Below the pieces are notes generated by a model. That model was not told where the DNA came from, did not search any database, and saw only the letters and a program-made list of their open reading frames with translations. The translations under genes were made by a program, and so were the position numbers. Of a stretch of 64,000 nucleotides of DNA, positions 56,228 to 59,293 are shown one piece after another (within the stretch, counting starts at the first letter, position 1; each line of letters opens with the position of its first letter). The DNA is from Lysobacter sp. ISL-50 (GTDB lineage Bacteria > Pseudomonadota > Gammaproteobacteria > Xanthomonadales > Xanthomonadaceae). The stretch covers positions 124,001-188,000 of the forward strand of contig NZ_JAGGRI010000007.1 of NCBI RefSeq assembly GCF_018612875.1, written 5' to 3'.

Positions 56228-57127
56228 ATGTTCGACCTCGCCCCGACCCTGGACTGCAACGGCCGCCGCCTGACGCTCGATCGCCCGCGCGTGCTCGGCA
56301 TCGTCAACGTCACGCCGGATTCCTTCTCCGACGGCGGCGCCCACGACACGCTCGAAGCGGCGGTCGCGCACGGCCTGAGGCTGGCGGAGGAGGGCGCCGA
56401 CGCGCTCGACATCGGCGGCGAGTCCACCCGCCCCGGCGCCGACGAAGTCCCGCTGGAGGAAGAGCTGCGCCGCACGATTCCGGTGATCGAGCGGCTGGCG
56501 CGCGAGACCTCGCTGCCGATCAGCATCGACACCTCCAAGCCCGAAGTCATGCGCGCCGCGGTCGCCGCCGGCGCCGGCCTGATCAACGACGTCTACGCGC
56601 TGCGTCGCGAAGGCGCGCTGGATGCCGCGGCCGAACTCGGCGTGCCGGTCGTGCTCATGCACATGCTGGGCGAACCGCGCTCGATGCAACAGCAACCCGA
56701 ATACGACGATGTCGTCGCGCACGTGCACCGCTTCCTGGCCGAACGCATCTTCGCCGCCGAGATGGCCGGCATCGCCAAGAAGCGCATCGTGGTCGATCCC
56801 GGTTTCGGCTTCGGCAAGACCTTGCAGCACAACCTGACCCTGCTGTCGCAGCTGGAACGCTTCACCGAACTCGGTGTGCCCGTGCTCGCGGGACTGTCGC
56901 GCAAGCGCAGCATCGGCGAGTTGACCGGGCGTGAGGACGCGCGCGAGCGCGTGCACGGTTCGGTCGCCGCGCATCTGATCGCGGCGCAGCGCGGCGCGAT
57001 GCTGCTGCGCGTGCACGATGTCGCCGCGACCGTGGATGCGCTCAAGGTCTGGGCCGCGGTGGCGGCGCAGCAGATGCCCAAGCGTGCCGCGTCACCGGCC
57101 ATGCCGAAGTGGCCTGACGACGAATAA
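56228..57127 (+). CDS. folP: Dihydropteroate synthase
   Basis: Folate pathway enzyme joining p-aminobenzoate to dihydropterin pyrophosphate; the target of sulfonamides. The 299 residues show VLGIVNVTPDSFSDGG, ALDIGGESTRPGA, SIDTSKPEVM, LINDVYAL, VVLMHMLG and VDPGFGFGKT. It follows ftsH as in many gammaproteobacteria, but glmM is not next to it; a 1.2-kb repeat region follows. Confidence 0.96.
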   Translation: MFDLAPTLDCNGRRLTLDRPRVLGIVNVTPDSFSDGGAHDTLEAAVAHGLRLAEEGADALDIGGESTRPGADEVPLEEELRRTIPVIERLARETSLPISIDTSKPEVMRAAVAAGAGLINDVYALRREGALDAAAELGVPVVLMHMLGEPRSMQQQPEYDDVVAHVHRFLAERIFAAEMAGIAKKRIVVDPGFGFGKTLQHNLTLLSQLERFTELGVPVLAGLSRKRSIGELTGREDARERVHGSVAAHLIAAQRGAMLLRVHDVAATVDALKVWAAVAAQQMPKRAASPAMPKWPDDE

Positions 57128-57322
57128 AGGTCGGGTTGCCGGCGATGCCGGGGCGATGGCATGAGCCGCGGTCCGCGACCCGCGCGTATCTCCCGGTACA
57201 AGCGACGCGAATCCAAGGCCTTGACGAAATCGCGATCACGCGGCAGCGACTCGTAGCGATGCACGAAAATCGACGCCGGCACGGCGCCTGAAAATTCGCT
57301 CCGCATGCCGCGAAATCGCCTT
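57128..57322. other. Gap between folP and the repeat array
   Basis: 195 bp with no supported gene. An open frame on the minus strand crosses it but has no recognisable protein features. Confidence 0.5.
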
Positions 57323-58204
57323 GGCTAAAATTTAGCCGCAATGGCCGGACCCTTGCGGCATAAGGCGTGAAACACGATGCCAATGCGTGTATCCGCAGGT
57401 TTGTCCACAGTGTTTGTGGACATAAAAATTCGCCGCGCGAATCCGGCGGCGACGATGCGCCGACACGCTCGAAAGCGCTTGCAATCCACGAACGATTCTG
57501 CATCGCGCCGGCGATCGCGCGCATGCGCGCAAACGCGGAAAAGTCAAACAAAATCGTTGGCTAAAATTTGTCCATAGTTGCCCAGGCCCTTGCCACGCAA
57601 GGCGCTCAGCGCAAACCGCACATGCCTGTCCGCAGGCTTGTCCACAGGCATTGTGGACAGCGCTCAAGTCCGCGTTGCGCCACAGGCAAGCGCGCTTGCC
57701 GCCGCGTCGATCGCGTTGCGCGTTCGATGCGATGCCGATGCGACCGCATCCATAAGCGCTCATCGCGCACCCGCCGAATCGCGATGCGCTGTCAAGCGAT
57801 TTGTGTGGTCAAAAAATGTCCAAACATATGCGACCCCTTGCAGCGCAAGGCCTGCAGCGCAGACTCCACACCGGTGTCCTCAAGCTTGTCCACAGAGTCT
57901 GTGGAAATCGCAATCGACGCGTTCACGCGCGCATCGGCCGCTCGCGAGTCGACACGCCGATCGCGCGATCGAAGTCAAGAAAATAGAGTGGTCAATTTTT
58001 CGCCAACCCTCTTGCAATGCTTATGCCGCAACGCTTCGCGCAGGTCGATCCGGAATCTGTCCGCAGGCTTGTCCACAGGCTGTGTGGACAACCGTGACCG
58101 AGTGGTCAAAAAACCGACAAACCGCCGCAAGCCGTTGCGGCGCCTGGGCTGCGGGCGCTTATCAACAGGCTTGCCCCAGTGGTTCTCCACACGATCTGTG
58201 GGGA
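57323..58204. repeat. Five-unit array of composite palindromic repeats
   Basis: Five direct units of 100-103 bp lie at 57323-57422, 57559-57659, 57805-57907, 57988-58090 and 58102-58204, separated by spacers of 136, 145, 80 and 11 bp. Each unit opens with an A/T tract (GGCTAAAATTT or GTGGTCAAAAA). A CTTGC/GCAAG-type palindrome sits near its middle (clearest as CCTTGC-N3-GCAAGG in units 2 and 3). Each unit ends in a 21-bp palindrome TGTCCACA-N5-TGTGGACA, perfect in units 1, 2 and 4 and with one mismatch in unit 3. The spacing from A/T tract to palindrome is constant (79-82 bp). TTGTCCACA resembles a DnaA box with one mismatch to TTATCCACA; TTATCAACA occurs in unit 5. The array occupies the upstream region of miaA. 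Confidence 0.88.
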
Positions 58205-58303
58205 ACCGGCGACGGGCCAGCGACCGGAGCGCGGGGCAGACCGCGGCTTTCGTCGCGCCCGTGCCTGTGCGAGGCTTCCGGCTCGTTACGCTTCGCCGCC
58301 CGC

Positions 58304-59293
58304 ATGACCGCTTCCTCCGACCCGCGCCCACTCGCCATCGCCCTGATGGGGCCGACCGCCTCGGGCAAGACCGCGCTCGCGCTGGACTGGGCGCAGCGCC
58401 TGGACGGGGAGATCGTCAGCGTCGATTCGGCCCTGGTCTACCGCGGCCTGGACATCGGCGCGGCCAAGCCCACCGAGGCGGAGCGGGCGCAAGTCCCGCA
58501 TCACCTGATCGACCTGCGCGATCCCTGGCAGACCTATTCGGCCGCCGAGTTCGCGCTCGATGCGCGCCGGGCCATGGACGAGATCGCCGCGCGCGGGCGG
58601 ATGCCGATCCTCGCCGGCGGCACCGGCCTGTACTTCCACGCCCTGCTGCACGGGCTGTCGGACATGCCCGAGGCCGATCCTTCCATGCGCGAGCGGATCA
58701 CCGCCGAAGCCGCGGAGCAGGGCTGGGATGCGATGCACGCGCAGCTGGCGGCGATCGACCCGGAGGCCGCGGCGCGCATCCACGCCACCGACGCCCAGCG
58801 CATTCAGCGCGCGCTGGAGGTCTATCGGCTGTCCGGCCGCGGCATCAGCGATTGGCGCCGCGCCTCGGCGCAGGCGCCGCGGCTGCCGTACCGCGTGCTC
58901 AAGCTGGTGCTGGCGCCGGCCGATCGCGCGGTGCTGCATGGGCGGATCGAGCGCCGCTTCGAGCAGATGCTGGAGGCCGGCTTCCTCGACGAAGTCCGGC
59001 GACTGCGCGAACTGCCCGGCCTGCGGGCGCACCCGCAGCCGCTGCAACTGCCGGCGATCCGCGCGGTCGGCTACCGCCAGGCCTGGGAACATCTGGACGG
59101 CGCCTACGCCGCCGCCGAGTTCCGCGACCGCGGGGTTTTCGCCACCCGGCAGTTGGCCAAGCGCCAGTTGACCTGGCTGCGCGGCGAGCTTGACGCGCGC
59201 TGGTTCGATCCTTTGCGCGATGCGGCGGAACTCGCATGCGCGCTGAGGCTGTTCGCCGCCGGGCGGCTGCGCGAAGGGACACCCGCCGCATAG
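58304..59293 (+). CDS. miaA: tRNA dimethylallyltransferase
   Basis: Adds the isopentenyl group to A37 of tRNAs reading UNN codons. The 329 residues show P-loop [68 protein letters not shown] and [12 protein letters not shown]. The start ATG at 58304 is preceded by an open frame running through the repeat array that has no family similarity. It heads the miaA-hfq-hflX-hflKC block. Confidence 0.96.

Follow-up and report, generated by a model that had tools for sequence, protein, structure and literature searches.

A candidate tandem array of DARS-like elements upstream of miaA in Lysobacter

Five same-strand direct units of 102–103 bp each occupy the interval 57322–58205 between an open reading frame that we take to be folP and the gene miaA in Lysobacter sp. 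ISL-50, and together they are probably a tandem series of DARS-like elements with the double role of recharging DnaA and holding it. The units share a conserved architecture: a group of DnaA boxes with the spacing of the E. coli DARS core and, at a fixed distance from it, a Fis-like site (Table 1). The window analyzed is a 64,000-nucleotide stretch of a 5.9-Mb genome assembled in 72 contigs, and the location of the array within it is intergenic and away from dnaA. R1 denotes a sequence-only model of the unit.

Table 1. Units of the array, their parts, and the neighboring genes (window coordinates)
Feature	Position	Strand	A/T dyad	CTTGC/GCAAG-type dyad	Box IV	Box III	Box II	Inverted box I	Basis and remarks
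folP, 5′ neighbor	56228–57127	+							ORF; name presumed, as in the original prediction
Unit 1	57322–57423	+	57322–57338	57351–57365		57389–57397	57401–57409	57415–57423	Sequence; R1 bit score 80.5; A/T dyad has full Fis consensus
Unit 2	57558–57660	+	57558–57574	57588–57602		57626–57634	57638–57646	57652–57660	Sequence; R1 bit score 72.7; A/T dyad has full Fis consensus
Unit 3	57806–57908	+	57806–57822	57836–57850		57874–57882	57886–57894	57900–57908 (one mismatch)	Sequence; R1 bit score 63.3; A/T dyad has full Fis consensus
Unit 4	57989–58091	+	57989–58005			58057–58065	58069–58077	58083–58091	Sequence; R1 bit score 65.3; A/T dyad short of full Fis consensus
Unit 5, degenerate four-box form	58103–58205	+	58103–58119		58159–58167 (TTATCAACA)	58171–58179 (degenerate)	58183–58191 (TTCTCCACA)	58197–58205	Sequence; R1 match only at E 0.03; A/T dyad short of full Fis consensus
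miaA, 3′ neighbor	58305–59293	+							ORF; PF01715 match at G000:C71:182436–183185

The original prediction had described five direct repeat units upstream of miaA, and these are present. Of the spacers it gave, the last three (145, 80, and 11 bp) hold and the first is 134 rather than 136 bp; the end of unit 5 lies ~100 bp from the start of miaA. Of the terminal palindrome it placed in all units, TGTCCACA-N5-TGTGGACA, units 1, 2, and 4 carry an exact copy, unit 3 a copy with one mismatch, and unit 5 a degenerate form. This clustering exceeds chance: elsewhere in the genome the pair has one more exact copy, and other places need two mismatches. The central CTTGC/GCAAG dyad, likewise ascribed to every unit, can be recognized in units 1–3, and units 4 and 5 have it in changed form. 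One component is additional to that description: the box word TGTCCGCA, 3 bp 5′ of TTGTCCACA. Box II (TTGTCCACA) departs from the consensus by a single mismatch, and box III (TGTCCGCA) is degenerate.

We stacked 68 same-genus units without gaps, taken from the window, the locus of a solo unit (L001), and ten loci from eight same-genus genomes. The consensus order is an A/T dyad TGGNNAAWWTTNNCCA, the CTTGC/GCAAG dyad, a GTGAAACCCGATT stretch, and then TGTCCGCA-N3-TTGTCCACA-N5-TGTGGACA. Sixteen columns of the stack are invariant, 15 of them within boxes; the boxes were used to pick the stacked units, so that their invariance is partly selection by picking. The spacing, Fis-offset, and divergence tests described below do not depend on this stack. 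Conservation in same-genus units extends to the CTTGC/GCAAG dyad and the GTGAAACCCGATT stretch, both outside the DARS scheme. Unit 4 is of the same subtype as the solo copy on contig G000:C10.

In order, orientation, and spacing, the boxes match the DARS core. Read directly from sequence, the E. coli DARS1 core is TTATCCACT-N5-TGTGGATAA-N3-TGTGTATTA and the DARS2 core is TTATTCACC-N5-TGTGGATAG-N3-TGTGAAGAA; on the other strand both read III-N3-II-N5-inverted I, exactly as in the array units, in which the I-5-II-3-III spacing is thus present. The three-box core with box I opposite II and III is clear in units 1–4 and degenerate in unit 5. Published descriptions likewise give DARS1 and DARS2 equal core spacing with box I opposed to boxes II and III, and place DnaA on box I in head-to-head contact with the neighboring DnaA (PMC5742627); E. 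coli DnaA ChIP-seq is reported to show peaks at both loci (PMC11317965). With R1, run under default filters at E up to 10 against DARS1 and DARS2, we found no likeness over the whole element. We do not take this missing similarity as defining, since what DARS1 and DARS2 share is described as the core, with regulatory regions that differ in length (PMC5742627). The view of the original prediction that such an architecture was undescribed is wrong for the core, which is the DARS core; a tandem array of that core was not found in the literature searched.

In E. coli, DARS1 lies at bioD–uvrB and DARS2, of 455 bp, at rppH–mutH. DARS1 resembles the array units in its three boxes, opposed box I, 5-bp and 3-bp spacers, and total length of ~100 bp, and it also has a flanking stimulatory region, compared here irrespective of side. 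It differs from them in being a single copy with other box words and no tandem array, in having no Fis consensus at −78, and in being unmatched by R1. DARS2 has the identical core arrangement but is a single copy with a long regulatory region carrying IHF and Fis sites at other places, whereas the Fis-like site of the Lysobacter array lies inside the 103-bp unit. According to the literature, DARS1 comprises 101 bp, including a ~50-bp regulatory region whose role in vivo is not settled (PMC5742627), and DARS2 requires IHF and Fis (PMC4245941, PMC8682772). Elements of this type are already known outside E. coli, as far as the sources consulted describe them: DARS2 is conserved in E. coli-proximal beta- or gammaproteobacteria (PMC5742627, PMC4245941, PMC8682772), and Vibrio cholerae has DARS-like sequences at the E. 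coli positions uvrB and mutH (PMC6090056, citing Fujimitsu 2009), which we liken to the units by description alone and for which the available text mentions no tandem array. An RctB site in V. cholerae has also been likened to DARS (PMC3937223).

The box spacing recurs across the class. The exact pattern TTATCCACA-N{0,30}-TGTGGATAA has matches in 122 of 274 class genomes and its reversed control in 2; among the matches listed, 70 of 75 exact pairs are spaced by N5. Of the other five, two have N17 and join outer boxes belonging to such elements; the remaining three are spaced by N22, N24, and N29. With up to one mismatch, the N5 pair occurs in 189/274 class genomes (reversed control, 0). A third same-direction box, with up to two mismatches, stands at N3 in 24 of the 30 loci from the N5-pair search and, at the other spacers from 0 to 15, in none of them except one at N14, the best of the two sides having been taken for every spacer. 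The shorter pattern TCCACA-N{0,30}-TGTGGA has 31 places in three genomes: 16 at N5, 10 at other spacings, and 5 in which box I is paired with an additional box upstream in its own element. The reversed pattern gave 25 against these 31, so that the total of pairs is hardly enriched and the enrichment is confined to spacing. The N5 spacing of the box pair is not due to chance.

The A/T dyad lies 78–79 bp before box II in the array units and, in units 1–3, corresponds fully to the Fis consensus GnnYAnnnnnTRnnC as given in PMC8682772 and PMC4245941. Across 47 nonredundant units, the full consensus falls within the dyad at one offset in 18 and one base away in 3 more; the background in those loci is 77 of 49808 positions. 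Class-wide, we considered those 26 of the 30 loci whose box III is within three mismatches, which had played no part in the discovery of the dyad. At −78 from box II, at least 5 of the 6 Fis positions are matched in 15 of these loci, completely in 6; the mean per offset is 0.35, and the next best offset has 2. Among 28 non-Lysobacteraceae matches from a scan of genome contigs, the consensus at −78 is full in 7 and has one miss in 2; the other 19, Gram-positive ones included, have fewer than 5 of the 6 positions there. Each of six genomes tested encodes a Fis homolog (48–50% identity over 74–80 residues). Judged by its sequence, the A/T dyad may be bound by Fis itself.

Divergence falls mostly outside the dyads and boxes. 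Between the array of the window and that of the nearest relative used (G006), dyads and boxes differ at 4/229 positions, the rest of the units at 18/285, and the spacers at 108/663, a difference being a mismatch or a gap; for dyads and boxes against spacers, Fisher's P is about 1e-10 with kinship ignored. Selection acts on the A/T dyads and DnaA boxes. The array adjoins miaA in 20/20 same-genus genomes, the host of the window included. Each of these genomes has 3–12 R1 matches at E up to 1e-5, at least 3 of them beside miaA (coordinates compared by hand). Five genomes (G002, G004, G008, G014, and G018; loci L036, L043, and L095) have a second array, 56–68 kb from the first and in opposite orientation. 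A single unit apart from the arrays occurs in 15/20; that of the present genome (G000:C10:82399–82501, about 1420–1522 of L001) lies between a gene for a hybrid histidine kinase and a convergent gene for a LuxR-type response regulator.

Beyond the genus, the element is widespread in lower numbers. At E up to 0.01, R1 matches in 118 of 149 family genomes, comprising 6/6 from the genus and 112/143 others, the latter with 1–7 matches each. All of seven non-genus genomes carry dispersed single or paired elements, often in the four-box form, and two of them (G141 and G145) also have an array at folP–miaA; G024 and G030 have two units each at that site. A strict III-II-I core upstream of miaA was counted 0 times in 16 stretches from outside the genus and 3–5 times in 4 stretches from within it. 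The gene priA adjoins one R1 match in 8/8 genomes, with weak E-values of 0.004–0.006 in five. In the present genome the priA element (G000:C56:782–883; L151) is single, lies upstream of the gene, has perfect TTATCCACA boxes II and I, and is perhaps the ancestral-type copy. Seven of the 30 class-wide loci lie beside priA, one (L210) beside uvrB, the place of DARS1 in E. coli; for the remaining 22, no neighbor is among the ten genes tried. Four records from Pseudomonas or Halopseudomonas (L068, L097, L104, and L107) have an element with full Fis consensus next to rdgC; L107 contains a second R1 match.

At dnaA–dnaN, the presumed origin of the genome of the window (L059, 3630–3674), two boxes, TTGTCCACA and TTATCCACA, stand as an inverted pair at a distance of 27 bp, and the same two places in six relatives (L060 and L062–L066) hold TTATCCACA, CTATCCACA, or TTGTCCACA. 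The box word TTGTCCACA of the units is thus also used at the presumed origin; the DnaA-box resemblance first proposed from the sequence stands. The DnaA of this genome is 55% identical to that of E. coli. We rejected a second origin (oriC) as an identity for the array: it is not at dnaA–dnaN, dnaA is on another contig in its own genome, and the distance to dnaA is 0.10–0.71 of the circle in the seven relatives for which it was computed. In an orientation count of 34 hand-picked matches from related genomes, with kinship ignored and G141 and drafts left out, 18/19 dispersed or priA elements and 2/2 second arrays point toward dnaA or the origin; a general rule to this effect is contradicted by 7/7 folP–miaA arrays and 5/6 solo units, which point away.

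By analogy with E. coli DARS, each unit would be a compact DnaA-reactivating element. DnaA would sit side by side on boxes III and II and head-to-head with box II on box I, an arrangement that could make ADP-DnaA release ADP and so be recharged with ATP. Fis or a Fis-like nucleoid protein at the A/T dyad, 78–79 bp before box II, might shape this complex and perhaps couple its activity to growth. Tandem multiplication at folP–miaA in this genus would then supply more recharging capacity together with DnaA holding. Since five tandem copies stand here and one or few in many relatives, the timing of initiation may be tuned by element number.

The main rival is titration without recharging, in which DnaA binding by the array would reduce the amount of free DnaA or ATP-DnaA, in the manner of datA, the spacing reflecting no more than good cooperative binding. 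The original prediction had suggested such a datA-like cluster, and the holding of DnaA is indeed likely: many paired boxes lie together, up to the 12 units per genome noted above; box pairs 2–3 bp apart are described as preferred by E. coli DnaA (PMC11317965); and for E. coli, titration by datA, DARS1, and DARS2 themselves has been discussed (PMC12371093). The box order, orientation, and 5- and 3-bp spacers, however, are those of the DARS core. E. coli datA is alike, by description, as an intergenic DnaA-box cluster that holds DnaA, but its minimal form is given as boxes 2, 3, and 7 with an IHF site and promotes ATP hydrolysis (PMC5742627). Titration needs neither an inverted box at exactly 5 bp nor a Fis-like site at a fixed distance, and this layout is kept across the class at 1–7 places per matching genome. 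On balance we consider titration alone unlikely. The DARS reading has its own difficulties. Besides the absent whole-element similarity, DARS1 lacks a Fis consensus at −78 and DARS2 has its Fis sites elsewhere; units 4 and 5 fall short of the full consensus; box III is degenerate and box II one mismatch off; the total of box pairs hardly exceeds its reversed control; the priA matches are weak in five genomes; and the CTTGC dyad and the GTGAAACCCGATT stretch are without a role in the DARS model.

That DnaA, with or without Fis, acts at the units to regulate miaA–hfq or folP, with replication control secondary, is very improbable. The last unit does stand close upstream of miaA, other elements lie beside priA, rdgC, and uvrB, and gene regulation by DnaA is known in E. 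coli (PMC11317965); yet the solo unit of this genome (L001) stands between convergent genes, and genomes differ in how many strong units adjoin miaA, from 3 to 11. Furthermore, with folP as tblastn query for neighborhoods, we located it within 9 of the 16 outside-genus miaA stretches. It adjoins miaA in 4; in the other 5 a gap intervenes, and none of these gaps yielded an N5 pair in a looser search; miaA and folP thus do without the element in nine other family genomes. Still smaller is the probability of tandem small RNA genes beside hfq, a reading suggested by three dyads per 100-bp unit and by the position upstream of miaA and hfq. Dyad pairing holds in 87.3% of cells and in 87.2% of shuffled ones (47 nonredundant units), 127 of 500 shuffles reach the covariation score, double changes are not in excess, and one inner A/T-dyad pair fails in 31/47 units. 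The window has no Rfam match at the gathering threshold, and the solo copy between convergent genes argues the same way. On the covariation count we rejected this reading; the A/T, CTTGC, and terminal dyads are conserved as DNA half-sites, not as RNA helices. A degenerate local duplication or functionless mobile repeat is extremely unlikely as well. Copy number differs among species and the arrays of G001 and G016 look homogenized, but against this stand selection on dyads and boxes, the presence of the array beside miaA throughout the genus, and the class-wide architecture. Blastn at E 1e-5 gave no match in plasmid and phage collections, by which we also rejected a mobile element, a plasmid iteron, or a phage origin; the iteron-type or partition site once proposed for the array is likewise not supported.

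Under the DARS reading there is a further possibility, to which we give an even chance: Gammaproteobacteria would share an ancestral DARS module of ~100 bp that already contained a Fis site, placed 78 bp from box II. E. coli DARS1 would then descend from this module in reduced form, and Lysobacter would have expanded it in tandem, to as many as eleven strong copies per array, making initiation timing dependent on element number and map position. Titles and abstract openings, mostly of non-subscription literature, yielded no report of DARS in Lysobacterales/Xanthomonadales or of tandem DARS arrays. As far as the literature searched extends, three things are new: the tandem array, the fixed position of a Fis-like site within a ~100-bp unit, and the signature shared across the class. 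With III-N3-II-N5-I and a Fis-like site at −78 as signature, DARS-type elements could be predicted in many more Gammaproteobacteria; the signature would also suggest an origin for the ~50-bp regulatory region of DARS1. Natural copy-number variants, from 3 to 12 units among close relatives, offer material on DARS dosage versus initiation timing and could help part recharging from titration. The homogenized-looking arrays of G001 and G016 have periods of about 320–340 bp.
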